A model generated the notes under the pieces. The model saw only the letters and a list, made by a program, of their open reading frames with translations. It was not told the DNA's origin and made no database searches. DNA of 51,419 bases from a virus: IMG/VR virus record IMGVR_UViG_3300033150_001155, positions 1-51,419 of that record; one strand, written 5' to 3'. The stretch's first letter is position 1. Every line of letters starts with the position of its first letter. The position numbers were made by a program, and so were the translations under genes. Below are positions 2,348-41,706 of the stretch, in pieces.

Positions 2348-2523
2348 TCTTTCTTCTCATCTGAGTCTTTGGCTTCAGGCGTAGCGAAGTCAGAAAAAGT
2401 GCGGGTATTACCGTGACAATTACATGTGTACGTTATTGGCGGAACGCCTGTTCCAAACCAAATGCTTTGCTGATAAATAGGTGCTCCGCACTTAGGACAA
2501 TGTCCAACTTTAATCCAATTCAT
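2344..2523 (-). CDS. Zinc-ribbon protein (59 aa)
   Basis: Contains CPKC at residues 9-12 and CNC near residue 38, a plausible zinc ribbon. GGGAGGAG precedes the ATG. It is joined by ATGA overlaps to the radical-SAM gene upstream and to the 124-residue gene downstream. Function is unknown. Confidence 0.6.
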   Translation of the reverse strand: MNWIKVGHCPKCGAPIYQQSIWFGTGVPPITYTCNCHGNTRTFSDFATPEAKDSDEKKE

Positions 2524-3395: not shown

Positions 3396-3607
3396 CGCCT
3401 TATTGGATACTCCCCGACATACTCATAGCAAATATAATCCCCACCATCCAGGCCAACTAGGATATCGCCACACTCAGGGTCTTGGTTGTGTGTCTGGCAC
3501 AATTCCAACCAGTCATGAAAGTTGTTGATGTAGATGGTGGCGTTCCTTTTGGGAGCAGGGCGATCCATGAAATCCTCTTTGTATATGAAATCGTTGAAGT
3601 CTGTCAT
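3392..3607 (-). CDS. Hypothetical acidic protein (71 aa)
   Basis: The chosen start (MTDFNDFIYK) overlaps the stop of the upstream gene as ATGA and has AGGAG upstream. A longer frame exists but lacks a ribosome site. The product is acidic and aromatic-rich with two cysteines. It lies between two radical-SAM-type genes and overlaps the second by four bases, so it may be a partner or substrate. This is unproven. Confidence 0.55.
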   Translation of the reverse strand: MTDFNDFIYKEDFMDRPAPKRNATIYINNFHDWLELCQTHNQDPECGDILVGLDGGDYICYEYVGEYPIRR

Positions 3608-6638: not shown

Positions 6639-6808
6639 GTCATCTCCCTTTTTAATTCTTCCAGAAATTTTGAAGCTTTTTCTTGCACTCTCCCCACGCT
6701 TCGAAGGATTTCTATTTTTCTCTCAATTCGCGCTTCTTCATCTTCAATCTTATCCGCCCTCTTGATCTCTTCCCTAATTTTTGCTGTATAGAAATCAATA
6801 TATATCAT
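6635..6808 (-). CDS. Small coiled-coil protein (57 aa)
   Basis: Start chosen at MIYIDFYTAKIR, preceded by GGGAGGCGGG. Almost entirely charged helix (EEARIERKIEILR), likely coiled coil. It overlaps the end of the helicase gene by 14 bases, so it is translated from the same message. It could be a helicase-associated factor, by position only. Confidence 0.5.
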   Translation of the reverse strand: MIYIDFYTAKIREEIKRADKIEDEEARIERKIEILRSVGRVQEKASKFLEELKREMT

Positions 6809-25209: not shown

Positions 25210-25614
25210 TCAACTCGCGCTGAACGTGAGCGTGTCGGTGCCTTCAAGCGTGAAGGTAATTGTCGCCGGACCATCATATGGACCCGGAAAAGTGAGATTG
25301 GTCAGCACACATTCGCCAGTTGCGGTCACCGTACCATCGGCGAGGGTTACGACGCAGGTTAACGTCGCACTTGTTCGATTTTCAAAATGATCGACAAGAT
25401 ACTTTTTCGCCAGATCGTTGACGATATAAAGCCCGTCACCTGAGATGTTCCAGTCGCGAGTCGATGAAATGATTTGTCGCCAGAACGATGAATCGCGATT
25501 CGTGAGATCAATAACCGACTGATTGCATGTGAGCGTGAAATTCTGCGACTCTGCAAGTGCTGCACCTTCAACGCTGAGCGTCATTAAAACTCCGCTTTTC
25601 CCGCTAGTAGCCAT
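25210..25614 (-). CDS. Major tail tube protein
   Basis: A 134-residue beta-rich protein of the TP901-1/phi13-type tail tube pattern (MATSGKSGVLMTLSVEGAALA, RDWNISGDGLYI, ATITFTLEGTDTL). Length, lack of cysteine clusters and position between the tail terminator and the chaperone are as expected for the polymerising tube subunit. Confidence 0.85.
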   Translation of the reverse strand: MATSGKSGVLMTLSVEGAALAESQNFTLTCNQSVIDLTNRDSSFWRQIISSTRDWNISGDGLYIVNDLAKKYLVDHFENRTSATLTCVVTLADGTVTATGECVLTNLTFPGPYDGPATITFTLEGTDTLTFSAS

Positions 25615-25632: not shown

Positions 25633-26079
25633 TTAATCTGCCGGAGCCATCTCAAATCGATATCTAATGACTCCGTGAAAAACTCTTTGCTGAGCTTCTT
25701 TGTCTTCTGTAATCACGTCTGAAAAATCTAAAAGGGCAAGATACGGCGCATCATATCCAGCGATTGAAAGCGAAGATGATGAGATGGCAATCATGACATT
25801 GTTCATCATATCCTCACATTCTTTCGCACCTTTTGCCCGACTCCAAACGTGGATGTTAATGGCGTTGTCTTCGGCCTCCGTATCACGCGTTGTAAACCCT
25901 ACTGACCGCACGCCTTCCGGATAGCCGAATGAAATATAAGGCCAAGACGTGTCAATATTCGGATCCTCCCGTGGCACATATTCACCAAATACACGATAAG
26001 ATGATGTCTTAGCATGTGTTGTCAACCGCGTATAAATGGCCTTTGAAAGTGCCGAGAATCCAAGTTTTCTTGTAGGCAT
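25633..26079 (-). CDS. Tail terminator/completion protein (DUF3168-like)
   Basis: A 148-residue protein (LSKAIYTRLTTHA, YVPREDPNIDTSWPYISFG, DNAINIHVWSR) matching the DUF3168 tail completion pattern. It normally follows the HK97 gp10-like gene; here the two are separated by the 8.8 kb glycan cassette. Confidence 0.8.
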   Translation of the reverse strand: MPTRKLGFSALSKAIYTRLTTHAKTSSYRVFGEYVPREDPNIDTSWPYISFGYPEGVRSVGFTTRDTEAEDNAINIHVWSRAKGAKECEDMMNNVMIAISSSSLSIAGYDAPYLALLDFSDVITEDKEAQQRVFHGVIRYRFEMAPAD

Positions 26080-26080
26080 T

Positions 26081-28516
26081 TTATTGATACCTGTTTATCA
26101 CCCTTGTTATATCATGCTTTTTATGGAAATAATCCGAGGCAATAGAGCGACGAAAGAAATTATATTCCGTGTCGTGGCGTGATTTTGTATGCATTGCCTG
26201 GGCTCCGAGGCAGGCAACTGCGCGCCATTTCGTCTCTTTTAATCTCAGAAAAAAATCCATGTGCTCGTATTCTATCCTTATTTGCTCATCCCACATAATA
26301 TCGTTGAAAATCTGCCTTTTGGCAAGAAAAAAATTAACAACCTGATCAGCATAGATATATTTCGTACCGTTCCGGCTGTGATATTTCTTCTCAGTAGGGT
26401 AGCGATACAGGAGTCCCCGGTCTTTCTCCAACCGAAGTCCTTTCGTATATTCCGGCCCTCCCCACGGCTCGCCGTTTTCATGAAACAACTGGCCGGCGAC
26501 AAGCCCTATGTCATCCGCACTTTCAAGAACGGCCATCATCTTCTTTACCGAATCAGAATCAACAAGCTGAATGTCATCATCCATCATTAGGACATATTCT
26601 TCCGTGATCTCTTTTATGATAGCATTCCGGCCAATTGATATTCCCGAATTAAAAGGCAATTCCGGCGTCTTTATCACACGATGACCTCTATGCTCAAGCT
26701 TGTAATACCGATAGGCTTTATCATCTGTAATCTTTGAATCATCGGCGACATATATTCTATAGGGAAAGGGCATGTATTTTTCAATTGAATCAAGTGTCTT
26801 AAAAAGGCATTCTTCGCGCATAAAGGTTTTAATCGCAACGGCAACAGTCTTTATCCCCGCTTTTGTGACGGCTTTTTGTAGAACATCATCTCCTCCACCT
26901 ATAGTAACGATGCCTATTTTCATCGGATTCGGCTTTCCCCACTCTTTATGCCAAGAACTCCAGATATGCTCAATACTCCATTTTTTTGAAAAAACATCAA
27001 ACCCATGTTCGCGTAATCGATATCGGCTATATTCTGGATCATATAGTGTCTGTTCATGAGCGATGACGCATTCATCAGTATAGGCAGTCTTCCAATCGCT
27101 TTTTTTCTTGAGCGCATAGAAAAAATCCTCGTGTTCCGGCGCGGTTTTCATCTGGGAATCCCATTTAATGTCTGTCCAAACATCACGGCGCATCATGAAA
27201 ATATTAAGTACAATATCAGCATAGGCATATCGAACGCCATCCCTTATTTCCCACCCGAATTTATCTATTTTTTCTATATGGAAAGTACTGCCCTTTGTAT
27301 ATAGCCATGCCTCATAATTCTGAACGGTCTGATTTGACCCGCGACCACGGACAATCTGACATCCAACAACACCGATATTGCTTCGCCGAATAAGTATCTC
27401 ACGTAGAACATCAAGGCGCGTCTCTGGCCTGAATACTACATCATCCTCAATAATCATGATATATTTGTATTTTTTCGGTATCTTCTCAAAACACTTGTTC
27501 CGCGTTGCGGTAACCCCACAATCAAACGGCATTAGATAATGGATGCAATTATTTTTCTTGAGGAATGCTGTTTTCTCTGCATTCTCTTTCCCGTTGTCAC
27601 CGACAAATATTGCAATATCAGGATAAATCGCCCGAATAGACTTTACTGCTCGGAATAGGTTCTTATCTCTTAGGAATGTCGTAATCAGAATTGCCGTATC
27701 AGAGAGAGTCGGTAACTTTTTCGCCGGCGTCGGCGTCAATCCTATCTCTTTTTTCGTGGCCTCGCCCCATCCTTTCTCATTTCGGACAATAGGAAGGAGT
27801 TTCTTCTCTGTCATTGAGAGTCGTGTTCTATTTGCGCGCACACAAAAAGCCATATGTGTCCTATTTATTATTGAATGCCACTGATGGTAGAAGGTTGCCT
27901 CCCTCTCAAGTGAATAGTTCTCAAGTCCATCTTGCATCGCTCTGAGATAAAAATCTGTATCATCTGCTCCCCATCCCTCATATTCTTCATCAAATCCATG
28001 AACCTTTTCTGCCCACACCTTCGGGAATGCTTGACATCCGCCGTATCCATGCTCGGGACGGAGGTTTGAGACTTTCTTCATCCAGTCAAAATCATCAAGC
28101 GTACCATCATAATCTTGAGGAAGATCGCTGATCCGGCAATGAATGATCCTGTCCTTCTTGCATCGTCTTATCACCGTTGCCATGAAATCAGGCTCAAATA
28201 CACAATCAACATCTGTCGTCATTACATAATTTGCCTTCGCCTTCCTGATCCCAATATTCCGTGCCCGTGAAATATTCCATATTCTTCCTGTCTCTGTATA
28301 TATGTATTTGGCACCGAAACGACGGCATAAATCAGCATGCTTCTTTCTGTAGGCCAGATCGCTATCTATATCTGAAACAATAATCTCTATTCGATCTCTC
28401 ACCGTCTGCCGTTTCAGGCTTTCAAGGAAATCCTTGAGTCGTGATACCTCCCGATGATAACTTTTCGTATTTTTCAACGGCAGGATCACGGAAAGAGACG
28501 GTTTCTTTTTCGGCAT
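26081..28516 (-). CDS. Tri-domain GT2 glycosyltransferase
   Basis: An 811-residue protein with three consecutive GT-A/GT2 modules. The first has LSVILPLKNT and the acidic motif TTDVDC, the second TAILITTFLRDKN and MIIEDDVVF, the third VAVAIKTFMREE and LMMDDDIQL. Each has its own nucleotide-sugar/metal site, so one chain may add several sugars in sequence. It begins one base after the tail terminator gene on the map, at the end of the cassette that interrupts the structural genes. Substrates unknown. Confidence 0.85.
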   Translation of the reverse strand: MPKKKPSLSVILPLKNTKSYHREVSRLKDFLESLKRQTVRDRIEIIVSDIDSDLAYRKKHADLCRRFGAKYIYTETGRIWNISRARNIGIRKAKANYVMTTDVDCVFEPDFMATVIRRCKKDRIIHCRISDLPQDYDGTLDDFDWMKKVSNLRPEHGYGGCQAFPKVWAEKVHGFDEEYEGWGADDTDFYLRAMQDGLENYSLEREATFYHQWHSIINRTHMAFCVRANRTRLSMTEKKLLPIVRNEKGWGEATKKEIGLTPTPAKKLPTLSDTAILITTFLRDKNLFRAVKSIRAIYPDIAIFVGDNGKENAEKTAFLKKNNCIHYLMPFDCGVTATRNKCFEKIPKKYKYIMIIEDDVVFRPETRLDVLREILIRRSNIGVVGCQIVRGRGSNQTVQNYEAWLYTKGSTFHIEKIDKFGWEIRDGVRYAYADIVLNIFMMRRDVWTDIKWDSQMKTAPEHEDFFYALKKKSDWKTAYTDECVIAHEQTLYDPEYSRYRLREHGFDVFSKKWSIEHIWSSWHKEWGKPNPMKIGIVTIGGGDDVLQKAVTKAGIKTVAVAIKTFMREECLFKTLDSIEKYMPFPYRIYVADDSKITDDKAYRYYKLEHRGHRVIKTPELPFNSGISIGRNAIIKEITEEYVLMMDDDIQLVDSDSVKKMMAVLESADDIGLVAGQLFHENGEPWGGPEYTKGLRLEKDRGLLYRYPTEKKYHSRNGTKYIYADQVVNFFLAKRQIFNDIMWDEQIRIEYEHMDFFLRLKETKWRAVACLGAQAMHTKSRHDTEYNFFRRSIASDYFHKKHDITRVINRYQ

Positions 28517-28518
28517 TA

Positions 28519-28728
28519 TTATTCTTCTGGAAGATATAAATCAAAATAAGCTTGATGGAGAATATGCTCAATTTGTATATATGATATGCCATCAAGATCA
28601 ATACTTTTAAGAAAAGACAGCATTAATTCATATAGAGGATGATCCCTTAATTCCTCAATTATTTTGCTATCTGTAGCAAATCCATGATTACCATAACCAT
28701 CTTCTTCAATTTTGTGATAAACATGCAT
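28519..28728 (-). CDS. Hypothetical protein in the glycan cassette (69 aa)
   Basis: A small acidic protein (MHVYHKIEEDGYGNHGF...) with helical C-terminal half. Lies between the tri-domain transferase and the sulfotransferase. No family recognised; may be an accessory of the cassette. Confidence 0.5.
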   Translation of the reverse strand: MHVYHKIEEDGYGNHGFATDSKIIEELRDHPLYELMLSFLKSIDLDGISYIQIEHILHQAYFDLYLPEE

Positions 28729-28751
28729 TGTAATCTCCTTAATTAAAATTT

Positions 28752-29462
28752 TTATTTATCTTCAAATACCCATTCTATACCTTGCGCATCCCATTTCTTA
28801 TTGAGATCTGAGATAATCTCCAAATAGCGATCAGAAACGGGCGCGCCCGCTTTGTTTTCATTCTTCCTCAATGGTGGAAGCTCATCTATGTCTTTGTATT
28901 CAATCCCGAAGTGATTGAACATCTTTCGATATTCATCAATATCTTCAATCCTTCGAAAATCAAAATCATAGGTCTTGGCAAATACAGATTTAAGCTGAAA
29001 AAACCGCTCTCTGACCTCATACCAGTTCCACATAATCGCCTCAAGATATGTCATCCCCTCCTCGCACCGTAGATAATTCCGCTTCCAATGAGGCTGAAGA
29101 AGCCAATCCCAACCGAGCTTCCAACCTCGCTCCGCATGGCTAAGGAACGTATCCAGAGGATTCCGATGTAAATATATGACGTAAAGATCATCGAATCTAT
29201 CAATAAACTCCCATCCAAACGACTTAATGAACATATTATTTGCTTCAAAATAGCCGTCTTGATAGCATTCAACTTTCGCGATTTTCTCTTCAATTATCTT
29301 TCGGCTTTCACTACTCATACTAAAATTGTTTATATCTTTCGATGTTTGGCCGATACAATAAGGCGCATTCTCATGGAAAGACGGAATATCAGTCATCAAA
29401 GAGAATACGTCCGTCATAAAACGAGTACCACATCTGCCAGTTGAGGCAACAAAGATTCTCAT
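28752..29462 (-). CDS. Sulfotransferase
   Basis: A 236-residue protein. ASTGRCGTRFM at residues 6-16 is the 5'-phosphosulfate loop, and VIYLHRNPLDTFLSH is the 3'-phosphate-binding segment of PAPS-dependent sulfotransferases. A WNWYEVRERFF helix follows. It probably transfers sulfate to a sugar made by the adjoining glycosyltransferases. A phage-borne sulfotransferase is unusual. Confidence 0.85.
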   Translation of the reverse strand: MRIFVASTGRCGTRFMTDVFSLMTDIPSFHENAPYCIGQTSKDINNFSMSSESRKIIEEKIAKVECYQDGYFEANNMFIKSFGWEFIDRFDDLYVIYLHRNPLDTFLSHAERGWKLGWDWLLQPHWKRNYLRCEEGMTYLEAIMWNWYEVRERFFQLKSVFAKTYDFDFRRIEDIDEYRKMFNHFGIEYKDIDELPPLRKNENKAGAPVSDRYLEIISDLNKKWDAQGIEWVFEDK

Positions 29463-29463
29463 A

Positions 29464-29649
29464 TCACTTTTTATGTATTGATGGAATTGACTTTATCCAT
29501 ACTTTTTTATTCCAAGGCAATTTTAAAAATAAAATAAACCATTTATATTTTGTTCCAATCCATGCTCTATAAATTCCGATCCTCCAATTAAATAAATTAA
29601 AATCCATATACCTTTTTGTATGTATCGTTGCTTTTATATTGGCCATCAT
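29464..29649 (-). CDS. Small basic protein (61 aa)
   Basis: Start placed at the ATGATG that overlaps the preceding stop, with GGAGGG upstream. Rich in Trp, Lys, Ile and Phe (FNLFNWRIGIYRAWIG, FILFLKLPWNKKVW), so it may associate with the membrane. It ends one base before the sulfotransferase start on the map. No family recognised. Confidence 0.45.
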   Translation of the reverse strand: MMANIKATIHTKRYMDFNLFNWRIGIYRAWIGTKYKWFILFLKLPWNKKVWIKSIPSIHKK

Positions 29650-30920
29650 CCTGCCCTCCAAACGCTTGTCACCCGTGCACCCTTACCGTCGTTAAAATCT
29701 TTTCTCTCCCATCCTCTTGAATTGAGGCGGTCAATCCCCGTCTTGTAAAGCTCTTTCCGCTGCGAATCATCAAGGACGATAAGGCCACCCTTCCGTATAT
29801 GCTTTATAGCCGTATCAACAAAATCCTCTCTACCTTGAGTTTCCCCGTCAATGAGGATGATATCATATTTCCCATTGAGATCCCGAAGCCCCGCTTTCGG
29901 ATAATCAGGATCATATCTGAGGTCAATTCCATTCATGCCCGAAAGCTCAAGCTCATCTTTAACAATATTATACCAAACCTCATTAGATTCAAAGGAAGTA
30001 AGCAAAGGCGTTCGGGAGGCAAACCAGATTGTCGATGATCCCGCTCCGATCTCAAGTATGCGGGAATCACCATTAAGCCGTTCCTCCATCATTCGAATCG
30101 CTCCGCTTTCAATCCACGGAAGACCACCGTTCAACAACATCATGTCACGACACCGCATATAATCTCGGAAACGCATAGTCTGGTCAGCATGTCGTTTTGT
30201 GATCCCCAGTATCTCTTGTACCAGTGGCTGTTGATAGAGCTTTGCCTTCTCCTGCAAATATTCTTCAAGTTTATATCCATCCAATTCTTGTATTGTGTGC
30301 GCAGGGTCATTTTCGCGAAACCGCGTTCCATACCAATGATGATAGATTGTGGGTTGACCTTTGATATGGATTTCATCTCCCATCAATCCGTATTTCTTTG
30401 CCCCCTTCTCAAGACGATGAACCTTGTCGCCAAGCCTGATAATATCCCAGTATGCTTTTTGGGCCGTATCTGTCGAATGAGGCGGAACATGCTTGAATGA
30501 TATGCCGTTCTTGATGATAAATTCTTTCTCATAGAACATGAGCGGAGGGTGGAGCGGTTTATGCACTGGGCCGAGACAGCCGATAAGTTTAATTTTTGGA
30601 TCGCTGTTGTATATGTCAAATAAATCCTCCGCCCATCCCGGACGCATGATATGAGAATCAACGTCCAGAAAACAGACAAAGCGAGAGCCAGCCAACGCCG
30701 TCCCCGTATCCATTGCAGCCCCATGCCCCCGATTCTCTTTCACTTTGATGAGGTTCACATCATCCTGCGCCTCAAGCCATAGGAGATTGTTGAACAGCGA
30801 ACCGTTATCAACGACGGCGACCTCATAAGCCATTGTCGTGAATTTTCGTACAGAGCAGATGAGAAGCTTCGCCCATTCAGGCGAGTTTATAGAGGCCGTG
30901 ATGATAGTCAGGCTCGGCAT
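29646..30920 (-). CDS. GT2 glycosyltransferase fused to a class I methyltransferase
   Basis: A 424-residue protein. Residues 1-230 are a GT2 domain (SLTIITASINSPEW, FLDVDSH as the metal motif). Residues about 285-424 form a Rossmann methyltransferase domain (SRILEIGAGSSTIWF for SAM binding, YDIILIDGE, RKGGLIVLDDS). The combination would glycosylate and methylate the same glycan. It overlaps the upstream GT2 gene by 13 bases. Confidence 0.88.
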   Translation of the reverse strand: MPSLTIITASINSPEWAKLLICSVRKFTTMAYEVAVVDNGSLFNNLLWLEAQDDVNLIKVKENRGHGAAMDTGTALAGSRFVCFLDVDSHIMRPGWAEDLFDIYNSDPKIKLIGCLGPVHKPLHPPLMFYEKEFIIKNGISFKHVPPHSTDTAQKAYWDIIRLGDKVHRLEKGAKKYGLMGDEIHIKGQPTIYHHWYGTRFRENDPAHTIQELDGYKLEEYLQEKAKLYQQPLVQEILGITKRHADQTMRFRDYMRCRDMMLLNGGLPWIESGAIRMMEERLNGDSRILEIGAGSSTIWFASRTPLLTSFESNEVWYNIVKDELELSGMNGIDLRYDPDYPKAGLRDLNGKYDIILIDGETQGREDFVDTAIKHIRKGGLIVLDDSQRKELYKTGIDRLNSRGWERKDFNDGKGARVTSVWRAG

Positions 30921-31756
30921 CGCAATGCTCCTAAATGTGATTTGATCTCTGCAAATTTCTTGCGCGCTTGTTTGGAATCGTATCCGTCCCCTTCGGTATT
31001 TGCCAAGTTACCGACAATGGCACCATGACCGAAATGATGATATGCCATTCGAAGTTGCGAAGTAAGCCCAATGACCCGGTAATCTTTCGGATTATCATAT
31101 GTCACCTTGAGCCAGAGCTTAGCTCCGACGTCATTTGAAACGACATCCGACCTCCATCTTTTCCGGTCAATCCGTCCGGCATGTTCAAGCTCAAGAAAAT
31201 AAGAGTTTTTCTCTGGAGGCAAAAGATCGGCGAAAAGTGATCGATAGGGTTCATGGCTTGCATCTTCAACCGTATTCCGCCAGTCAATTATCATCCCGTC
31301 TTTATATGACCGCATGTCAAGAAATCCGAACCAAAAATGATAGATCGGCGTCCTGAATCCTTTCCAAGTATAGCCCTTCTGTTTTGTATCAACTATTGCC
31401 AGCAGATTCTTCTCTGATTCCGCAAGGGACACAAATGTAGATAACCATCCTTTTGTCCTGATGAATGTATCGCAGTCAAGGATTACCGCATAATCCGTAT
31501 GACAGAGATCGTTTACAAGAACGTTGAGAGACCCTCCGTGGGTAAGGGGAGGGCCATAATTTTCAACAAGAGTAAGCCAACCAGCCTCTTGTTTTGCCCT
31601 CAAATATTCAAGGTCAATCCCGTTTTTCGAACAGTCATCAAACACAATCATCTCATATGGATAATGAGTGAGATTCCGCACCGACTCGACGCAGAGTTGT
31701 ATCGCCTCATATGAATCGCGATTTGTGATGAGAATAGAGACTGTTTTCATCCTCAA
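30908..31756 (-). CDS. GT2 family glycosyltransferase
   Basis: A 282-residue protein. KTVSILITNRDSYEA opens the GT-A fold, EMIVFDDCS follows, and YAVILDCDTF carries the DXD metal motif. The C-terminal half is variable. ATGA overlap with the next GT2 gene upstream shows operon organisation. Sugar and acceptor unknown. Confidence 0.85.
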   Translation of the reverse strand: MRMKTVSILITNRDSYEAIQLCVESVRNLTHYPYEMIVFDDCSKNGIDLEYLRAKQEAGWLTLVENYGPPLTHGGSLNVLVNDLCHTDYAVILDCDTFIRTKGWLSTFVSLAESEKNLLAIVDTKQKGYTWKGFRTPIYHFWFGFLDMRSYKDGMIIDWRNTVEDASHEPYRSLFADLLPPEKNSYFLELEHAGRIDRKRWRSDVVSNDVGAKLWLKVTYDNPKDYRVIGLTSQLRMAYHHFGHGAIVGNLANTEGDGYDSKQARKKFAEIKSHLGALRCRA

Positions 31757-32469
31757 GCCCTCAGTTTATAGAGCTCCTCCCGAATAGCTGCCATTTTTTT
31801 CTCTCGGATAAGGATGGTGTTTTTCGCATCGTGTTCGTAATCGGGAGTCGCAATCACTGAAATATGCTCCCAATGTCGGAATTTACGTTTGACCGATTCT
31901 GGCACTGGAACAATCTTATCTTCAAGACCTTTCTCTTTGAGTTTGAGCCAAAATTCACCACCGACCGGGCAATAAACTTCTCTCCCCTCATATTCAATCC
32001 GCTTGTGTCGCCAGTCGCTTTTGAGTCTTTTCCGATATGCCGTCATGTTAAGACACATGAACCAGGATTGAAACCAGTCAGGAAGTGATGGTTGCGCAGA
32101 TCGATATCCTCGTTCAATACCGAATACTCCGATATTAGAGCCGAGAGCATCAACGGTCTCTGAAAGCCATCCGCCCTCAAGAATCTGCACATCATTGTCC
32201 ATTATCAGCGCAACGCTTGTCTTGCATGTGTCGAGGAGAACATTAATGGCATTCCCATGACCGAGTCGTTTTTCCCCTTCAATAAGATTGATCGCTCCCT
32301 TTGCCTTTGCCGATCGGAGATAATAGATATCCTCATCATTGTAGCTTCCGTCATCATAGACAGTTATTTTATATGACGGATATTCCGTGAAGCGGATAAT
32401 TGATTCAATACAGAGCTTTATCATCCCCCAGGCGTTAAAATTCGGAATCAGTATATTTACCTTTTTCAT
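31753..32469 (-). CDS. GT2 family glycosyltransferase
   Basis: A 238-residue protein with KVNILIPNFNAWG, KITVYDDGSYND and the DXD motif VALIMDNDVQ. Clearly homologous in outline to the GT2 genes on both sides, suggesting tandem duplication and divergence. ATGA-coupled. Confidence 0.85.
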   Translation of the reverse strand: MKKVNILIPNFNAWGMIKLCIESIIRFTEYPSYKITVYDDGSYNDEDIYYLRSAKAKGAINLIEGEKRLGHGNAINVLLDTCKTSVALIMDNDVQILEGGWLSETVDALGSNIGVFGIERGYRSAQPSLPDWFQSWFMCLNMTAYRKRLKSDWRHKRIEYEGREVYCPVGGEFWLKLKEKGLEDKIVPVPESVKRKFRHWEHISVIATPDYEHDAKNTILIREKKMAAIREELYKLRA

Positions 32470-33287
32470 TTTTCCTCCCTCAGCTTCAGAAGCCGGAGAC
32501 TGACTGCAGCTTTCGTCTGGATAACATATTCATGTTCCGGGCGATGGGCATTTCGGTCAAGTGAAAGGAATGTCTTGAATTGTCGCCATAAAAAATACTT
32601 CGGCATCTCAAGCATCCGAAGCCCGCTTGGATTTTCATACTCAAGCACTTCCCATAACCGCCATCCAGTATCAAGAAAAACCTGCACAGGTTCGGGGTCG
32701 GGATGCGCAGGAGGCGACATACCGTCAAATTGCTCTTTTCTCCAATATTCATCATAAGGAATGCGCCTTAGATCCCAGAGATCATCAGATGCTATTTTCG
32801 CATAGGCTTTCATGTTGAGAAGCATCCAGTTTGGGATCCACCGAGGCGCAGACCAGCAGTTTTGGAAGTGATTCTCGGCCTTTCTGAGGCGTGCGACTCC
32901 GAGATCGTTTTCATCATGGATCATTGCCATAAGGATCCGAAGCCACTGGCTATCAACGACCTCCGTCCCGGTTGACATCAGCATCGCAAAAGGTGCTCGG
33001 CACTGGCGCAAGAGCACCTTGATATTTTCTCCATGTCCATATTTCAATCGTCCGCTCGGCATTGTATCGGTTATGACGTTTTCAATAAGCTTTATTCGCC
33101 CCGCCTCGGCCATACCACGGAGATATTCAAGCCGATTTCCGTCCCCCTTGCCTTCGGAATTATCGCAAACCATCAGAGAAAAGGAAGGATAATCCGTTCG
33201 CTTAAGAATTGATTCTATAGTGAGGCATACAGCATCCCAGCTTGTTCTGTTCGGAAGAAGAATTTCAACGTGCTTTTTATCCAGCAT
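32466..33287 (-). CDS. GT2-like glycosyltransferase with degenerate metal motif
   Basis: A 273-residue protein from the ATG at 33287, chosen to avoid overlapping the acetyltransferase gene upstream. HVEILLPNRTSWDAV and LMVCDNSEG fit the GT2 fold, but the position of the DXD motif reads FAMLMSTGTEV, lacking both aspartates. It may be inactive, metal-independent or act as a partner. ATGA overlap with the next GT2 gene. Confidence 0.75.
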   Translation of the reverse strand: MLDKKHVEILLPNRTSWDAVCLTIESILKRTDYPSFSLMVCDNSEGKGDGNRLEYLRGMAEAGRIKLIENVITDTMPSGRLKYGHGENIKVLLRQCRAPFAMLMSTGTEVVDSQWLRILMAMIHDENDLGVARLRKAENHFQNCWSAPRWIPNWMLLNMKAYAKIASDDLWDLRRIPYDEYWRKEQFDGMSPPAHPDPEPVQVFLDTGWRLWEVLEYENPSGLRMLEMPKYFLWRQFKTFLSLDRNAHRPEHEYVIQTKAAVSLRLLKLREEK

Positions 33288-33291
33288 TTTG

Positions 33292-33837
33292 TCATTCCCG
33301 ATATTCATCCTTAAGTATTGACATCACAATATAATCTTTCCACCGACCATCGCGGAATACGGATTTTCGGAGCCTTCCTTCTTCATGAAATCCGATCCTC
33401 CGATAGAGTCTCAATGCAACCTCATTATCCTCAAGGACACAAAGCCAAAGGCGGTGCATATTCCAATGATCAAAACAGAATTTTAATAGTGCCCTAAATG
33501 CCCGTGTCCCCAAACCCTTCCCCCGCTTCTCGGGTACAATGTCCAACCCTACACGCACAGAACGATTATTCATATCAATCTGATCCATACGGATAAACCC
33601 GCAGAAATCGCCTTCAACTGAGATTGGAAAATCCTTCGTCTCCTCAACAATAGAAAAATATAAGCGCGTATGGTCATCAAGCAGACCTTCAAACCACCGT
33701 TCCTGTTGCCTCTCGTTTATTTGAGTGACATCTGTGAGATAAATCCATGTTGACGGATCGTTCCTGATGCATCGGATATGCTCAATATCCTCCCTCTCAA
33801 CGGGACGGAATCCAAGCCCATCATGCCAGAACATCAT
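33292..33837 (-). CDS. GNAT N-acetyltransferase
   Basis: A 181-residue protein from the ATGATG at 33837 (GGTGGAGG upstream). GLGFRPVEREDIEHI opens the fold, KRGKGLGTRAF is the acetyl-CoA pyrophosphate loop, and LRLYRRIGFHEEGRLR is the C-terminal motif of RimJ/RimL/PseH-like enzymes. Beside a sugar aminotransferase it probably N-acetylates an amino sugar. The order aminotransferase then acetyltransferase supports this. Confidence 0.88.
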   Translation of the reverse strand: MMFWHDGLGFRPVEREDIEHIRCIRNDPSTWIYLTDVTQINERQQERWFEGLLDDHTRLYFSIVEETKDFPISVEGDFCGFIRMDQIDMNNRSVRVGLDIVPEKRGKGLGTRAFRALLKFCFDHWNMHRLWLCVLEDNEVALRLYRRIGFHEEGRLRKSVFRDGRWKDYIVMSILKDEYRE

Positions 33838-34930
33838 ATGCCTCCACCGCATTCATGATCTCTTCTCTCTCTTCTTCACCGACCCACCATCCGACAGGAA
33901 TCGCTACCTGATGCTCGTTGAAATAATCAACACCTTTCAGGCCGTCTGTCCTGAACCGACCGAAACAGGAATGAGTATCGTTCCTTTCGTGTACTCGACT
34001 TGTATGAATCTTCCTGTCCGCCATGAATTTTATGAACCTCTCCCGATCATCGACAATGACCACAAAAAGCCAATATGACGAAAACCGATCATCATCGTAT
34101 AATAAGGGCTTGACTCTCCGTCCCGCCCGATTTGACATTTCGCTGAAATAGAACCGTGCATTATCCCTATGCTTCTTGATCACTCCTTCAACGTGCGCCA
34201 TCTGCTCAATCCCGATCGTTGCCGTCACGTCGTTCATGTGATATTTCCATCCAGCCTCAGCGATGTTTTCAGCACATCGCACCTCGCGCGTTTTGAGTCG
34301 GTCGATACCATACCACCGAAGTAGTCGTCCCCGTTCAAAATCGTCCCTTCGCCTCATGCAAAGTGCTCCACCGTCAACGGTCGTTAATTGCTTGATTGCT
34401 TGGAATGAAAACATTGTGAGGTCTGCGAGTGTACCGACCTTTCGGCTTTTATATTCCGCGCCGAAAGAATGCGCAGCGTCCTCGATCAAAGTAAGATTGT
34501 ATTCCTTGCATAATGCGATAAGCCTATCATAATCGCAAGGATAACCTCCATAATCGACACAAACGATGGCTTTTGTTTTCGGTGTAATCTTCCGTTCAAC
34601 ATCCTCGGGGTCAATATTCCCGTCCTCTGGATTTATATCCGCCCAGACGATTTGGGCACCTGAATGAAGAATCGGCATATTCGTTGCCGTGCAGGTCATC
34701 GGTGTTGAAATCACTTCACAACCTTCTCCGATATCCTCAAGCCTCAGTGCCAGATGAAGTCCTGCCGTACCATTCACAAGAGTCAAGCAGTATTCACACC
34801 CGATGTATTCTTTCAGCATATCCTCAAATTTATCAACCTTTATACCTTGACCGATCCATCCAGAGTGGAGCGTTTCAAGCAATGGCTTATCTACTGACTC
34901 TGGCATGTAAGGTTTGAAAAGCGGTATCAT
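33821..34930 (-). CDS. DegT/DnrJ/EryC1-type PLP sugar aminotransferase
   Basis: A 369-residue protein of normal family length. MIPLFKPYMP, LVNGTAGLHLAL, EDAAHSFGAEYKSRKVG (Asp151 near the PLP ring) and FSFQAIKQLTTVDGGAL with Lys180 as the Schiff-base lysine are all present. It converts a keto sugar nucleotide to an amino sugar. No dehydratase or epimerase to make the keto sugar is seen in this window, so the substrate must come from the host. Confidence 0.92.
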   Translation of the reverse strand: MIPLFKPYMPESVDKPLLETLHSGWIGQGIKVDKFEDMLKEYIGCEYCLTLVNGTAGLHLALRLEDIGEGCEVISTPMTCTATNMPILHSGAQIVWADINPEDGNIDPEDVERKITPKTKAIVCVDYGGYPCDYDRLIALCKEYNLTLIEDAAHSFGAEYKSRKVGTLADLTMFSFQAIKQLTTVDGGALCMRRRDDFERGRLLRWYGIDRLKTREVRCAENIAEAGWKYHMNDVTATIGIEQMAHVEGVIKKHRDNARFYFSEMSNRAGRRVKPLLYDDDRFSSYWLFVVIVDDRERFIKFMADRKIHTSRVHERNDTHSCFGRFRTDGLKGVDYFNEHQVAIPVGWWVGEEEREEIMNAVEAYDVLA

Positions 34931-35367
34931 AATATTTCCTTTTTCATGAGAACGGAGGCAATACTTTTGAGCACTTTGCTTTCATATGTGAGATAGGAAG
35001 GGAAGAGATACGGCCTTGCCCCCATTCGGCTTGATCCAAATTCATTAACAAGGGCATATTTAACATTCGTTCCGACAACGACAACAAACCTTGTCTTCGT
35101 CCCCGCCGGTCTCTTTATTCCATCGCCGGATTTAGCTGGGCCTTGTGTCCTTCCCTCTGCGATATTACTCCAGCTCCAATTTGTCGATATCGACCCCATG
35201 AGCCGACCCGTATCCCAGACTCCCTTTGCCTTCCCCGTCTCCTTTGCCAGCCCTTCAATTCTAAACCCGTTCTTCAGGAGCTCTTTCTTTATAGCTTCTG
35301 TTTTCAATCTAACCAGCTTATCTATCCGCGCCTGAACTTTCGCCACACCAACTACTTTTACTGACAT
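34927..35367 (-). CDS. HK97 gp10-like head-tail/minor tail protein
   Basis: A 146-residue protein starting at the ATG that overlaps the previous stop (TGATG). The pattern VVGVAKVQARIDKL, DTGRLMGSIST, VGTNVKYALVNEFG and RPYLFPS is the HK97-gp10 family signature. Involved in joining head and tail. The next structural gene, the tail terminator, is displaced 8.8 kb by the glycan cassette. Confidence 0.88.
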   Translation of the reverse strand: MSVKVVGVAKVQARIDKLVRLKTEAIKKELLKNGFRIEGLAKETGKAKGVWDTGRLMGSISTNWSWSNIAEGRTQGPAKSGDGIKRPAGTKTRFVVVVGTNVKYALVNEFGSSRMGARPYLFPSYLTYESKVLKSIASVLMKKEIL

Positions 35368-35702
35368 CACTCGCCTCGTTGGAGCTCGGATACGAATAGC
35401 TCCATTTTCTTGCCCGCCTCACTCCAGTTATTTACAAGCTTAATCTCAAATTCCCGCGAATCAAGCTTGACGATATAGCCCTCTTTGATATTCGCCCTCC
35501 ATTCAAGATATATGACATAATCCGGAAATACAGCTTTTTGATCATATGCCACAATTTCTAACTTTTTCGGCAAATCTTCAAATCTACACGGAACCCGGCG
35601 GTGGAGTATGACATCTGACGATGTATATCCGCCTTGACCATCTGAAGTATAGCTCTGGCGCAGAATCGTGCATTTTGAATCCAGAAGAGACGCAAAACTC
35701 AT
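35367..35702 (-). CDS. Head closure (head-tail joining) protein
   Basis: A 111-residue small beta-barrel protein (LLDSKCTILRQSYTSDGQGGY, VPCRFEDLP, EFEIKLVNNW) of the phage head-tail joining family (SPP1 gp16-like). It sits between the connector and gp10-like genes as in other siphoviruses. TGATG and ATGA overlaps on its sides. Confidence 0.85.
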   Translation of the reverse strand: MSFASLLDSKCTILRQSYTSDGQGGYTSSDVILHRRVPCRFEDLPKKLEIVAYDQKAVFPDYVIYLEWRANIKEGYIVKLDSREFEIKLVNNWSEAGKKMELFVSELQRGE

Positions 35703-37030: not shown

Positions 37031-38074
37031 TCAGCTATTTTGTGTCAACATTACAAACGGCGAAAGCGTATTTGCCCCGCGTTTCGGAGTGATTGGTGCC
37101 GAGAGAGTCGGCTGCCCATCAACCCTGAGTACAATGCGCCAGAACGTCTCGTCTGTGAGAAACCCAGAAGAGCCCGGCACGTGCCGTGATCCTGCAATTT
37201 CAAGGCTTCTGTCCGCAATGACATAATGACGCCAATCCGCAAGAATAAGGTCTCCCTTTGCATCAATTGCTGAACAATGCTCTGTCGGTATAATCGGTGC
37301 CCCGAAACAAGTCCTGTTTGAGAGATCAAGAAATGTAGCCTGATTAGCTGCTGATGCGCTTGCCTCAAAAATCTCATCCAGTGCATCGGGATTGATGAGC
37401 CAAACGGCATTCTTCCATGAGGCAGGAAGTAGACGTTTCGCCATATGCGCAAAATCCGTCCAATCAATCAAATTGTTCGCAGCCCGGGAAACCGTTATTT
37501 CAGCCCCGCTATTTACAATACCGATCGGCATCCCACCGCCTGTCCCCTGGATATAGGCGTCATCCTCAATGAAGGCGAGAGCCTTCCCGAATGACTGAGC
37601 GATGAATTCTGAAAAAGCCCCGTAGTCATCCTCAAGCTCATTCGATGCATAGCATGTGCCGACAAGTTTATGTGGCGTCAATTCAAGCTCGCCCACTTCC
37701 GGGTCTGAGATGTTTGATGACTTGTCACCACGCTCCGCCGTCCATGTGAACGTAATGCCACCATAGATGTTTGACGATCTGTCGGTATCAACAAGGGTAC
37801 GAATTTTGAGCGAATCGCGAGTTACGGGAAAAACACGCGCCCGAGGACGAACGATTGCACCCTCCAGAGCTGCAGCTTCGAATATTCCATCCGCCCACTG
37901 CTCTGGCACAAGAAATCCGCCCTGTGCGTCCACGGAAGTTTCCATCCTCCCCGCAGTCTTTGCAGAGATGAGACGGGAATCCGGAGTCCCTTCCCCATCA
38001 CAGGCTTTTCGGACTTTCACACAGAACTCACCCAGAGATTTGAACCCGCCGTCCTTTGTCTTATACTTCTCCAT
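37031..38074 (-). CDS. Second HK97-fold major capsid protein (short form, 347 aa)
   Basis: Shares the blocks DAQGGFLVPE, DSLKI, FTWTAERGDKS, LELTPHKLVGTCYASNEL and LTDETFWRIVLRV with the protein at 39775-41094, so the two are paralogs. The N-terminal scaffold-like region of the other is replaced by only about 45 residues. HK97-fold capsomer protein. Its start overlaps the upstream GT4 gene by 14 bases. Possibly a minor or vertex subunit; which one dominates in the virion is unknown. Confidence 0.85.
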   Translation of the reverse strand: MEKYKTKDGGFKSLGEFCVKVRKACDGEGTPDSRLISAKTAGRMETSVDAQGGFLVPEQWADGIFEAAALEGAIVRPRARVFPVTRDSLKIRTLVDTDRSSNIYGGITFTWTAERGDKSSNISDPEVGELELTPHKLVGTCYASNELEDDYGAFSEFIAQSFGKALAFIEDDAYIQGTGGGMPIGIVNSGAEITVSRAANNLIDWTDFAHMAKRLLPASWKNAVWLINPDALDEIFEASASAANQATFLDLSNRTCFGAPIIPTEHCSAIDAKGDLILADWRHYVIADRSLEIAGSRHVPGSSGFLTDETFWRIVLRVDGQPTLSAPITPKRGANTLSPFVMLTQNS

Positions 38075-39227
38075 TGTCCTTCTCCTGTTTTTTAAGATTT
38101 TCTTCCAATTTATTAATTATCGGGACGAAGTATGTCTTCCATACATTATCCCAGTCGTAATCAATAACCTCCTCCCTAATCTCTCTTCGATCATATCCGT
38201 CATCATGGAAATCGGCATAAAATGATTGTAAGGATTCTAATATCTCCTGTTCCTTACATTCATATCGCCACGTTCCATTTGGTATCCACCGAAGCTCATT
38301 ATCATCGACGTGAATTAGTCGGCCTGTTCGACAGAGCTCTCTTCCTGTAGTCGTATCGGTTACGATGACAGGAGTCCCGCACGCCTGAGCTTCAATAATC
38401 GGGAGGCCGAATCCTTCGCCCCTAGTCGGGAGACACATTACGTCCATCCCGTTATATATGTCGGCCAAATCACCTTCTGTATAGCGCGAGAAATGGTAAT
38501 CCATCTGCAATGGCCAGCCGACGACATTTCCGAGGCCGAGGCTGTTTACAACATCAATATAATTAATACAATTACTTCTGACTCCTCGCTCATTTGCCAA
38601 CGAATGGATAAAGAGCCGGGATTCCTTATGTTCCTGATTGAATTTTTTGAATGCCCTCAATAATGGGATAAAACCCTTTCTGTCATCGGCGTAGTTCATG
38701 CCGACGGTTCCGATGACAAAAGTATCATCTCCCCAATTCATGCTCTCCCTGAAGGCCTTCCGTCCCTTTGGCTTTATCCTGAATGTTTTTGTGTCTATGC
38801 CATGTGGAGCATACCACGGATTGAGCCCAATACTCTTGAGCTCCCTCTCTCCATGCCGAGAATAGGCAATAGGAAAGCCGACTTTTTCTGCGATCCTTTT
38901 CAGCACCGTGCTTATCCATTCGGTATCAACTGGAATCATCGCGACCCATTTCTCTTTCGGTGGGAGTCGCTTCCCGTCCAATACCCAAATATCAAACAGT
39001 GACCAGATATAGTCGAATTCCTCATCAACCAACATCTTGTTTACATAATACATATCGGTGCCGTCGTAAATTTCAAATCCTTCCCATTCGTACCTTGTAT
39101 GATCCATATGCTTTGTGATGACACGTACGAAATGCCCAACGTCTCTCAGCCGTACAATAAGCTCCCGAGTCACATTCCCATAACCGGATCGTGCAAGTGG
39201 CGAAGCTGAATGCCATAATATTCTCAT
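38061..39227 (-). CDS. GT4-type glycosyltransferase between the capsid genes
   Basis: A 388-residue GT-B fold enzyme. MRILWHSASPLARSGYGNV opens the N-domain, GTVGMNYADDRKG begins the C-domain, and EGFGLPIIEAQACGTPVI is the nucleotide-sugar-binding E-x7-E motif of GT4 enzymes. Its position between two capsid paralogs, overlapping one, suggests that it glycosylates capsid proteins. A terminator-like hairpin separates it from the gene upstream, so it may have separate control. Confidence 0.85.
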   Translation of the reverse strand: MRILWHSASPLARSGYGNVTRELIVRLRDVGHFVRVITKHMDHTRYEWEGFEIYDGTDMYYVNKMLVDEEFDYIWSLFDIWVLDGKRLPPKEKWVAMIPVDTEWISTVLKRIAEKVGFPIAYSRHGERELKSIGLNPWYAPHGIDTKTFRIKPKGRKAFRESMNWGDDTFVIGTVGMNYADDRKGFIPLLRAFKKFNQEHKESRLFIHSLANERGVRSNCINYIDVVNSLGLGNVVGWPLQMDYHFSRYTEGDLADIYNGMDVMCLPTRGEGFGLPIIEAQACGTPVIVTDTTTGRELCRTGRLIHVDDNELRWIPNGTWRYECKEQEILESLQSFYADFHDDGYDRREIREEVIDYDWDNVWKTYFVPIINKLEENLKKQEKDNGEV

Positions 39228-39239
39228 TTTCTCCCCCTT

Positions 39240-39297
39240 AAAAACGAGGCGTCGGGGTAAAGGAGGGAGAATGACACTCGCTTCACCCCTAGCCTCG
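39240..39297 (-). terminator. Rho-independent terminator between decoration-like gene and GT4
   Basis: On the minus strand CGAGGC-TA-GGGGT pairs with ACCCC-GAC-GCCTCG around a 26-base loop (39245-39297), followed by five T residues (39244-39240). It would cut the transcript after the first capsid and decoration-like genes, raising their abundance relative to the GT4, second capsid and connector genes. The large loop makes it weaker than ideal. Confidence 0.6.
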
Positions 39298-39324
39298 CCT
39301 TCATTTCACATTCCTACACGAACA

Positions 39325-39762
39325 TCACGAAGGCAACGTTGCCTGTTTATAACGTCCGCGCATCTGCTCCATGACAAGTCCGACAACCTCTGTTCCGCTC
39401 GCATCGTCGGTAGACACCCGTCCCGCTACATAGCGGAAACCACTTGCAACATCAAGTTCCTGACCCCTCACCTGACATGTCAGGATATCGGTGTCGGTCG
39501 TATTCGTCGATGTAAAAGTGTCTGAAGCACCGCTGACGGTTTTCGACCCGCCTCCGCTCGTATCGGTAGCCTGCCAGATGGCAAGCGTGATGACTGAATC
39601 AGAAGCCAGATCAGAAGCTACACATTTTGCAACAACGAGATCGTAATTAGCCATGTCGAGCCATGAGGATGTGATACGATCGTTTGACTCTCCACCCAAA
39701 GCGGTTGATATCCCGCCGTAGGTAGATCGTACAACCTGACTCTCTTTGTGTATGTTAGCCAT
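39325..39762 (-). CDS. Putative capsid decoration-type structural protein (145 aa)
   Basis: A beta-rich, Ser/Thr/Ala-rich protein without cysteine clusters (MANIHKESQVVRSTYGG, RYVAGRVSTDDASG). It follows the main capsid gene after 12 bases, the usual place of a decoration or head-fibre protein. Its composition fits an exposed structural protein. Family not recognised with certainty. Confidence 0.6.
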   Translation of the reverse strand: MANIHKESQVVRSTYGGISTALGGESNDRITSSWLDMANYDLVVAKCVASDLASDSVITLAIWQATDTSGGGSKTVSGASDTFTSTNTTDTDILTCQVRGQELDVASGFRYVAGRVSTDDASGTEVVGLVMEQMRGRYKQATLPS

Positions 39763-39774
39763 TTTATTCCTCCA

Positions 39775-41094
39775 TCAGCTTGTAGTTGCCGCGAGTGCGA
39801 CGAACGGGGAGATAGCCGTGACCGGAGCTGCCGAATTCTTGAGCGTGATTGCACTCTGAGGCCAGCACTGTCCGCCGACCCGCAGAACGAACCGCCAACA
39901 TGTCTCATCGGTGGTGAAAGCCACATGAGTTGACACGTCGATGGTGATCGGCTGTCTGTCGAAAATAATGTAATACTTAAGATCGACATAGCAGATATCG
40001 CCCTGTGAGCCGAGTGCCGGGAGTTTCTCCGACACAAACAATGGCCGTCCGAAAATCCGCATCGGAACCTTATCGGCTCCGCCCATGTTCGGGTTAATAT
40101 TGATGACGTTCGCTCCTGTTCCTGGTGCAGCGTCGCCGGTCTGCATCCCGATCAGATCGGGAAGTACGCTGTTATTGCAGATCCAAATAGCAGACGCATG
40201 AGATGACGGAAGCATGTTCGCATACATCTCCCGAAGGTCTTCCCAAACCACTCTGTTCACCGTATTCCGGTATGGAGGACGGAGAGCATTGGAGGTCAGA
40301 AATCCCATCGGTTGCCCGGCACCCGTTCCGTTGATAAAAGCATCGTCCTCAAACCATCCCCATGCCGAACCAAACATTGACCGGATTAGGGGCGCAAGGG
40401 CGATCGCGGAATCATCGAGCAATTCATTTGAAGTGTAGGTTATCCCCGCAAGTTTATGCGGAGTGATCTCCAGTTGCCCGAACGAGGGTTTCGTTGCGCT
40501 CTTCGTTCCACGCTCCGCCGTCCACTTTGCCTGCACACCACCAAAAACGGTAGAGGAATGAGACGTATCTTGGACGGTCGGGATCTTCAACGAATCTGTC
40601 TTCAGCGGGCCGATGACGGTCGCTCCGTTCGGCCTCACAACTGCATTCTCAAGTGCGATTTTTTGAAGGTCTGCTCTGTAGACTTCCGGCACGAGGAACC
40701 CGCCCTGGGCGTCCGTGCTAATCTCCATGTGTCCTGCTGTCTTCGTGATCTCGCCCGTGTCTTTGACGAATGTCAGCCTGTTGTCAATTTCTCCATTCTT
40801 CCGGAACTTCCGAATCGCAGTCAGGAAATCACCGAATGGAACGTTTTTCCAGTCCTTCTCGGCTTCTTTCTTGGCTGCCTCCAATTCTTCGTCTTTTGCA
40901 GTTTCAGCCTCAACTTTTTTCAGCGTGTCTTTCATCTGCTCTGCCAGAGCGTCTTTGGTATATTCGCCGAGCGTGGACTTGACATCCTCAAGAATGCCGT
41001 CCATCTTCTCGCGCAACGCAGTCTCGGTCTTTTCAGCCACAAGTGCCTCAATCTCGCTTTCTTTCATGGTCACTTTTTCTTTTTCATCTTCCAT
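39775..41094 (-). CDS. HK97-type major capsid protein (long form, 439 aa)
   Basis: Residues 1-120 are charged and helical (EIEALVAEKTETALREKM..., KDEELEAAKKEAEK), like the delta/scaffold domain of HK97 gp5. From about residue 128 the capsid fold begins (STDAQGGFLVPE, DSLKIPTVQDTS, QLEITPHKLAG, FTTDETCWRFVLRV). It is likely cleaved by the upstream protease. The 174 bases between it and the preceding gene hold no gene I can support. A paralog lies at 37031-38074. Confidence 0.92.
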   Translation of the reverse strand: MEDEKEKVTMKESEIEALVAEKTETALREKMDGILEDVKSTLGEYTKDALAEQMKDTLKKVEAETAKDEELEAAKKEAEKDWKNVPFGDFLTAIRKFRKNGEIDNRLTFVKDTGEITKTAGHMEISTDAQGGFLVPEVYRADLQKIALENAVVRPNGATVIGPLKTDSLKIPTVQDTSHSSTVFGGVQAKWTAERGTKSATKPSFGQLEITPHKLAGITYTSNELLDDSAIALAPLIRSMFGSAWGWFEDDAFINGTGAGQPMGFLTSNALRPPYRNTVNRVVWEDLREMYANMLPSSHASAIWICNNSVLPDLIGMQTGDAAPGTGANVININPNMGGADKVPMRIFGRPLFVSEKLPALGSQGDICYVDLKYYIIFDRQPITIDVSTHVAFTTDETCWRFVLRVGGQCWPQSAITLKNSAAPVTAISPFVALAATTS

Positions 41095-41268: not shown

Positions 41269-41706
41269 TCAAACGCTTAATCGTGCGCTTATAAACCTTT
41301 GATTTATCGCCTGGAGATTCTCTTGATACCAGGCTCGAAATTTGTCAGGCTTAACTTTCAACTTACTTGATATCTCGATTATCGTATGCCCTGCCCTGAG
41401 GAGTTTCACGACCTTATTGATATCAACATTCGGTAATTTCTCTGAATGACTCTTAATAGGCCATCGTTTCTTTGCATCCTTCAGAATTTTCTCTGTCTTT
41501 CCGGCATTCGTCGTCATGAGTTTCGTCATCTCCCCGTTCCGGGCGTTCACCCACTCTCTGAGACGCTGTTCATTGACGTTCATCTCATAGGCAACCTTGT
41601 CTATCGGCCATCCGAGACTCCCGCGCAGATAATGCCAGCGAACCCAATTCTCAAGCGATTCAATCATTGAAAAATCTTTTGCCATCTCCCTTTTTGCCTC
41701 CATCAT
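41269..41706 (-). CDS. Double helix-turn-helix protein between protease and capsid genes
   Basis: A 145-residue protein with two helix-turn-helix-like segments, WPIDKVAYEMNVNEQRLREW and AGHTIIEISSKLKVKPDKFR, similar to those of small terminases. ATGA-coupled to the protease gene. A DNA-binding protein in the head operon between protease and capsid is unusual; it might regulate late transcription or take part in packaging. No family assigned. Confidence 0.55.
   Translation of the reverse strand: MMEAKREMAKDFSMIESLENWVRWHYLRGSLGWPIDKVAYEMNVNEQRLREWVNARNGEMTKLMTTNAGKTEKILKDAKKRWPIKSHSEKLPNVDINKVVKLLRAGHTIIEISSKLKVKPDKFRAWYQENLQAINQRFISARLSV

Follow-up and report, generated by a model that had tools for sequence, protein, structure and literature searches.

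A variable cassette of putative glycan-synthesis genes in the virion gene order of a phage lineage, with C-terminal serines as likely acceptors

Gene content and borders of the cassette

We analysed the 51.4-kb virus record IMGVR_UViG_3300033150_001155 (51,419 nucleotides; the whole stretch is called the window below), and in particular a run of putative glycan-synthesis genes, hereafter the cassette, that interrupts its virion genes from position 34930 down to 26081 (Table 1). All virion genes lie on the minus strand, in the order terminase, portal, MuF-like head protein, protease-AAA protein, major head protein 1 (MHP1), decoration-like protein, a glycosyltransferase (GT) of family GT4, major head protein 2 (MHP2), connector, adaptor, gp10/Neck1, cassette, tail terminator, major tail protein (MTP) and tape measure. 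The C-terminal serines of MHP1, MHP2 and MTP are the proposed acceptors of the glycan.

Table 1. Cassette genes, border genes and virion proteins with a proposed acceptor serine
Feature	Position	Strand	Basis and remarks
MHP1	39775..41094	-	Ends in Thr-Ser (last codon 39778-39780), the putative acceptor of the glycan
GT4 glycosyltransferase, encoded between MHP1 and MHP2	38061..39227	-	phrog_2170 116 bits; PF13692 57.1 bits
MHP2	37031..38074	-	Ends in Asn-Ser (last codon 37034-37036), also a putative acceptor
gp10/Neck1-like gene (neck/tail completion), upstream border	34927..35370	-	phrog_5 58.9 bits; TIGR01725 17.7 vs 30.8 bits
DegT/DnrJ sugar-nucleotide C4 aminotransferase	33821..34930	-	PF01041 281.6 bits, cut-off 19.8, residues 15-362
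GNAT N-acetyltransferase	33292..33852	-	PF13302 69.1 bits, cut-off 25.4
Divergent GT2-type protein	32466..33308	-	Paralogue of next two genes; alignment; GT-A fold (prediction and Foldseek)
GT2 glycosyltransferase	31753..32469	-	PF00535 57.8 bits
GT2 glycosyltransferase	30908..31756	-	PF00535 40.0 bits
GT2 + class I methyltransferase domain fusion	29646..30920	-	PF00535 44.9 bits; PF13578 24.0 bits
Probable PAPS sulfotransferase	28752..29462	-	PF00685 E 1.7e-4, below cut-off; conserved GRCGT and RNPxD stretches
Small low-GC open reading frame	28519..28728	-	GC 0.29; no family match
Three-module GT2 protein	26081..28516	-	Modules d1 27731-28516, d2 26873-27712, d3 26084-26872
Tail terminator, downstream border	25633..26079	-	phrog_176 58.6 bits
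MTP	25210..25614	-	phrog_1407 80.4 bits; ends in Ala-Ser (last codon 25213-25215), also a putative acceptor

The genes are tightly packed. From gp10 to the tail terminator, successive junctions overlap by 4, 32, 17, 4, 4 and 13 bases and are then separated by 183, 23, 2 and 1 bases, and counts of promoters or terminators at the cassette borders were no higher than in shuffled sequences. The initial annotation had described an aminotransferase, a GNAT protein, GT2 modules, a GT2-methyltransferase fusion and a sulfotransferase in one coupled run, and each of them was recovered where it had been placed, the sulfotransferase as a probable one.

The adjacent aminotransferase and GNAT genes are like PseC and PseH of pseudaminic acid synthesis. 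These are their nearest NCBIfam models, although both scores fall below the equivalog cut-offs (222.6 vs 423.5 bits for PseC, 80.3 vs 93.1 bits for PseH). The closest solved structures to the aminotransferase are 4zwv/4xau and CalS13 (4zas), enzymes that presumably act at C4. As the initial annotation had noted, early sugar-nucleotide enzymes are absent: neither an RmlB-type dTDP-glucose dehydratase nor, unlike in pseudaminic acid synthesis, PseB had a match in the window, and PseB had none in the records G000, G007 and G067.

Seven GT2-type modules were counted, one of them fused to a methyltransferase domain, in agreement with an earlier estimate of six or more. The GT2 Pfam family matches three stretches of the last gene and one stretch each of the fusion and the two single GT2 genes, all four proteins being above the cut-off. 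In the last gene, d1 is chondroitin-synthase-like and d3 is B4GALNT1-like; the predicted structure of d3 (predicted local distance difference test score, pLDDT, 92.2) is nearest to human B4GALNT1, followed by polypeptide GalNAc-transferases and GlfT2. The modules d2 and d3 are paralogous to each other, and the three mid-cassette GT2 genes likewise form a paralogous set. The most divergent of these three has no Pfam match, 25-32% identity to its two neighbours and a predicted GT-A fold (pLDDT 87.9); its DxD motif is missing in the window copy and at the aligned place in 7/7 aligned sequences. The methyltransferase half of the fusion scores slightly below its Pfam cut-off of 26.3 bits.

The GRCGT and RNPxD stretches of the putative sulfotransferase, which we take to be the two binding motifs for 3'-phosphoadenosine-5'-phosphosulfate (PAPS), are kept in all five aligned relatives. 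This protein had no match among 50,697 phage records or among solved structures. Outside the cassette, the GT4 gene between the two head-protein genes probably belongs to the same glycan system, and a GT4 gene is found near the head genes in many relatives too.

A fixed site within the lineage

Relatives were collected by searching viral contigs with MHP1, the connector, the tail terminator and the aminotransferase, and then with an MHP1 profile (loci carry L numbers below). The triple-GT protein was also tried as a query against viral contigs and found no relatives that way; the tail terminator found them. This last query returned 14 loci. Two begin at the tail terminator, and in the 12 that include over 1 kb of upstream sequence this gene is always directly preceded by the multi-GT2 gene. 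The same arrangement was seen in five loci taken from whole records (L071, L072, L073, L110 and L111). Several of the 17 loci that show the site are near-copies of one another. At the other border, the gene that follows gp10 codes, wherever it is readable, for a PseC-like aminotransferase, a GT2, a Methyltransf_24 or a Rhamno_transf-like protein. Many short contigs end before the site, with PF00535 matching 16/46 and 7/31 records.

The cassette had been described as inserted into the head-tail gene order. Its position between gp10 and the tail terminator was confirmed. It is nevertheless not a recent insertion, because its codon use matches that of the structural genes (r 0.846, vs 0.850 between two halves of the structural set) and relatives carry a cassette at the same site. 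The reading frames are intact and the proteins ~37-70% identical to those of lineage relatives, so that the pseudogenes considered earlier were not found. The comparison with close relatives for an empty site, suggested at the same time, gave no strict empty site within the lineage. The distant relatives L036 and L039 have no GT2; there, HTconn, gp10-like and 143-residue protein genes lead on to a gene like that of a tape-measure protein. The 143-residue protein has no family match and is a tail terminator by position only. The cassette is a long-standing, fixed-site and exchangeable module of the lineage.

Exchange of modules around a constant core

Comparison of the last gene of the cassette among relatives showed which parts are exchanged. 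Every complete copy contains d2 and d3, and some contain d1; the d3 modules are 43-56% identical across relatives. The d1-d2-d3 order of the window is also found in, for example, L041, L048, L049 and L051. In L040, L072, L110 and L111, LicD and cytidylyltransferase domains lie between d2 and d3, and L071 has LicD alone at this place. The d1 module is missing from most LicD-bearing copies and present in L110. Similarly, the GT2-methyltransferase fusion is present in L049 and L051, and the GT2 alone in L048, L066 and L111. Other cassettes contain free methyltransferases (L048, L051) or a radical SAM protein with LicD (L012).

These gene exchanges suggest that the anchor of the coat is constant while its chemistry may vary, by sulfate or by phospho-substituents of the LicD type. 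The idea that sulfate and LicD are strict alternatives was abandoned, since L073 combines a sulfotransferase (39% identity) with a LicD-like stretch recognized by eye.

Further genes were noted at or near the site. The cassette of L111 includes a DNA N6/N4 methylase (L111:11784-12437, 90.9 bits). In L020, glycan genes occupy a second site between MHP2 and the connector, with a second, strong sulfotransferase (L020:12384-13148, PF00685 65.1 bits). Endonuclease-like open reading frames (ORFs) of ~290-304 residues, identified by eye, lie beside the cassette or the tail terminator at L041:2-871, L050:3679-4593 and L053:90-1004.

C-terminal serines of head and tail-tube proteins

Proteins of the lineage were clustered at 90% identity, and again at 70%, and the last residue of each virion protein was counted once per cluster. 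At 90%, serine is terminal in 35/36 MHP1, 33/34 MHP2 and 13/13 MTP clusters, and at 70% in all of them (13/13, 17/17 and 9/9, respectively). Among the other virion proteins, it ends gp10 in 0/14 clusters, the head-tail adaptor in 0/16, the portal in 1/13 and the decoration-like protein in 2/28. The background is 29/587 for unassigned ORFs of at least 100 residues, i.e. ~5%, and 2/40 for the other proteins of the window. In the last twelve positions of MTP, the terminal serine is the sole invariant residue. The major capsid proteins (MCPs) of the GT2-less distant relatives L036, L037, L038 and L039 end in YK, YK, VL and YK, giving no serine in four proteins, two of which are identical in sequence. 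Homologues from phages of other groups have a terminal serine in 0/10 MCPs and 0/4 MTPs; D29 (MCP and MTP) and Giles (MCP) also have none.

Similar endings were found in the mycobacteriophages Che8 and Catdawg and in a phage of Salinibacter. Che8 MCP and MTP end in KTGS and SDGS, and none of six other Che8 virion proteins ends in serine; in Catdawg, which belongs to the cluster of Corndog, the corresponding ends are LVGS and KGDS. Freeman et al. (2023) reportedly described virion glycosylation for Che8, Corndog and Myrna, and may already state the serine of mycobacteriophages; a search of the literature on phage sulfotransferases, Salinibacter phage GTs and a C-terminal serine rule yielded nothing relevant among the matches listed.

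The three-module GT2 query identified d3 homologues in cultivated Salinibacter ruber M8 phages (OR896218 and relatives). In phage 14_1, the d3 homologue (hhalign E 1.5e-16) is encoded by the second gene after that of the major head protein, and the gene in between codes for a 213-residue protein that contains GRCGT and scores weakly (11.4 bits) as a sulfotransferase. In this phage, AGS terminates both the MCP and a 152-residue protein that gene order alone places at the tail-tube position; 3/20 of the coding sequences inspected end in serine. The 372-residue Salinibacter GT, 14_1_42 in OR896218, occurs in 184 records, every one a Salinibacter phage. These phages differ from the lineage of the window in having a single GT with no amino-sugar genes seen beside it, in a stretch annotated as hypothetical throughout.

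Based on these distributions, the C-terminal serines of the virion proteins are the likely glycan acceptor. We also considered that glycans are attached elsewhere on the virion (decoration-like protein, connector or tail proteins), the serines being a structural coincidence. The decoration-like protein, which is rich in Thr and Ser (24% together), and the connector share the operon with the cassette, and the tail terminator also ends in serine in 7/14 clusters. However, a terminal serine is rare in the decoration-like protein and found in none of the MCP and MTP comparison homologues. Moreover, no residue of the MTP tail is better conserved, and a C-terminal serine is seen again in non-homologous proteins and in Che8, Catdawg and Salinibacter phage 14_1. 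We thus regard attachment elsewhere on the virion as unlikely.

Comparison with known glycosylation systems

Virion glycosylation by enzymes of the virion operon is known in mycobacteriophages. Glycans are described on the C-termini of the subunits that form capsid and tail tube in some of these phages (PMC12619734), Che8, Corndog and Myrna are named as glycosylated (PMC12363180), and cluster O phages are described with GTs and a methyltransferase inside the virion gene order (PMC4351075), as is also seen in the Catdawg record. The lineage of the window is similar in that its GT genes lie within or beside the virion genes and that its capsid and tail-tube proteins end in serine. In contrast, the mycobacteriophage site is between portal and protease rather than between gp10 and tail terminator, the Catdawg cassette has no amino-sugar, sulfotransferase or LicD/cytidylyltransferase functions, and exchange of cassette content across a broad lineage distinguishes the present system. 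Four Catdawg proteins compared with 43 window proteins gave a best blastp E value of 0.058. What appears to be new is thus the use of unrelated GTs, the predicted amino-sugar and sulfate functions, the LicD/cytidylyltransferase exchange and a site that is variable throughout the lineage.

Clade-variable clusters for rare, bacterial-type amino sugars of the virion coat are described for the Megavirinae (PMC10117803). Those giant viruses of amoebae differ in carrying the glycans on fibrils and in encoding fuller nucleotide-sugar pathways, whereas the window has the last two amino-sugar steps only.

Phage GTs have another established use, the glycosylation of phage DNA (PMC12619734), and the weak match of d3 (20.9 bits) to TET-associated DNA glycosyltransferases (TAGT) is in line with it. 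Nevertheless, TAGT was above its cut-off in 0/9 records, the early proteins scanned, a set that left out some small ORFs, included no hydroxymethylase or TET-like family, and a sulfotransferase and an aminotransferase have no obvious role in this process. That the cassette acts on DNA is therefore highly improbable.

Alternatively, the enzymes may remodel a surface polymer of the host, for seroconversion or superinfection exclusion. LicD proteins and sugar aminotransferases are known in host envelope pathways, and a GT2 of the window weakly matches a GtrB-like PHROG (phrog_841, 32.8 bits). However, O-antigen conversion of the Gtr type relies on membrane proteins GtrA and GtrB, whereas the window's cassette has no flippase-, polymerase- or GtrA-like protein, and none of its proteins reaches the transmembrane range (maximum 1.28). 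Its position in the late virion gene order would also leave little time to act on the envelope, and the acceptor signature is on virion proteins. We consider this possibility distinctly unlikely. The initial annotation had proposed an N-acetylated amino-sugar glycan, methylated and sulfated, on the virion or on a host polymer. Such a glycan is supported here. Since the acceptor signature is found on virion proteins and the window's cassette has no clear membrane protein, the virion is favoured over a host polymer as its target.

Proposed pathway

From the genes, their site, their modular exchange and the C-terminal serines, we infer a set of reactions, a type of sugar, a linkage and a biological use. 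The cassette would make a short cytosolic glycan for O-linkage to MHP1, MHP2 and MTP, in each case at the C-terminal serine, a proposal to which we assign a probability of roughly 80%. The gene families suggest a sulfated glycan containing a 4-acetamido sugar. Judging from their families, the aminotransferase and the GNAT protein would make a nucleoside diphosphate (NDP)-4-acetamido sugar; the starting compound would be an NDP-4-keto sugar of the host, probably a 4-keto-6-deoxyhexose. The serine may receive its first sugar from one GT2 module. The best candidate is the C-terminal, always-present d3, with its folds nearest to B4GALNT1 and polypeptide GalNAc-transferases, because the lineage keeps both the acceptor and d3. 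The remaining GT2 modules might lengthen the chain, using sugars of the host as well as the amino sugar made by the phage, and the methyltransferase and the sulfotransferase, or LicD-type groups in other loci, may cap it. Having no clear membrane anchor, the GT2 modules are expected to work on acceptors in the cytosol, either ahead of virion assembly or while it proceeds.

Several observations weigh against this proposal. The source of the 4-keto sugar precursor was not found in the virus, and the putative sulfotransferase scores 21.6 bits with PF00685 (20.6 bits in a second scan), below the 22-bit Pfam cut-off. Although the window's cassette lacks clear membrane segments, that of L110 has a hydrophobic 78-residue ORF (2.47), and three more proteins of relatives reach 1.62-1.63. 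As for the serines, besides their presence in half of the tail-terminator clusters, there are two exceptions, MHP1 of L024 (ATSA) and MHP2 of L098 (VEQQ). In addition, MHP1 and MHP2 share a common ancestry, so that their endings are not fully independent; MTP is unrelated to them. One of the eight other Catdawg virion proteins (gp40) also ends in serine. Lastly, three Catdawg GTs show no detectable homology to d3 (hhalign probabilities of 0.2, 1.1 and 0.6%), and the proposed link to proven virion glycosylation is thus one of logic, by analogy rather than homology.

Other genes of the window and host hints

Two HK97-type head protein genes (37031-41094) are adjacent, or split by the GT4 gene, the decoration-like gene or both, in nearly all relatives, and the phage of the window belongs to a double-capsid-protein lineage. 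A single 955-residue protein (41703-44570) is a fusion of the head maturation protease (Peptidase_S78) and an AAA+ ATPase (76.7 bits). The DnaB-like helicase (6795-8459) contains an intein (Intein_splicing 71.2 bits, cut-off 35.8, residues 355-490). The MuF-like head protein (44583-46307) has 574 residues, vs ~300 in many relatives, and a weak, sub-cut-off intein match (26.9 bits, residues 267-563); it probably holds a second intein. Two early genes are of the radical SAM type (2520-3395, phrog_9298 250.6 bits; 3604-4251, DUF5131 134.1 bits), and two tail-end proteins of 384 and 480 residues (13961-16554), with no Pfam or PHROG match, resemble sugar-cleaving TIM barrels by eye.

The terminase is nearest to that of a Tunturiibacter phage (39%). 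The head-protein profile gave a single match in a genome collection, on the 6.6-kb contig L078 (JADHWO010000126.1) of a Candidatus Aminicenantes metagenome-assembled genome (MAG), with 63% identity for MHP1. Of 396 Candidatus Aminicenantes genomes, 15 had any match, and that MAG alone is close to the lineage. It has dehydratase-like genes, none of them above the RmlB or PseB cut-offs. We do not claim Candidatus Aminicenantes as the host, as a 6.6-kb contig may be misbinned; it is a weak hint at most.

Implications

A broader hypothesis, for and against which we see about equal odds, is that phage virion glycosylation has a general acceptor signal, a C-terminal serine shared by the MCP and the tail-tube protein. 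Enzyme sets with no relation to each other would use this signal in three phage groups or more, namely mycobacteriophages, Salinibacter phages and the present lineage. Here, it would anchor a serotype-like locus, in which acceptors and d2-d3 are constant and the caps (sulfate, methyl, LicD/CDP-type phospho-groups, 4-acetamido sugars) are exchangeable, under selection by something other than vertebrate antibodies.

Reports of virion glycosylation concern, to our knowledge, a small number of mycobacteriophages. If the proposal is correct, such glycosylation would be widespread in environmental phages and as variable as a bacterial capsule locus. Glycosylated virions would then be recognizable from sequence, by the rule that capsid and tail-tube proteins both end in serine, and phage-made sulfated and phospho-substituted glycans are predicted. 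The cultivated phages of Salinibacter ruber M8 would make the idea testable, and the reason why environmental phages change their sugar coat would itself become a testable question.

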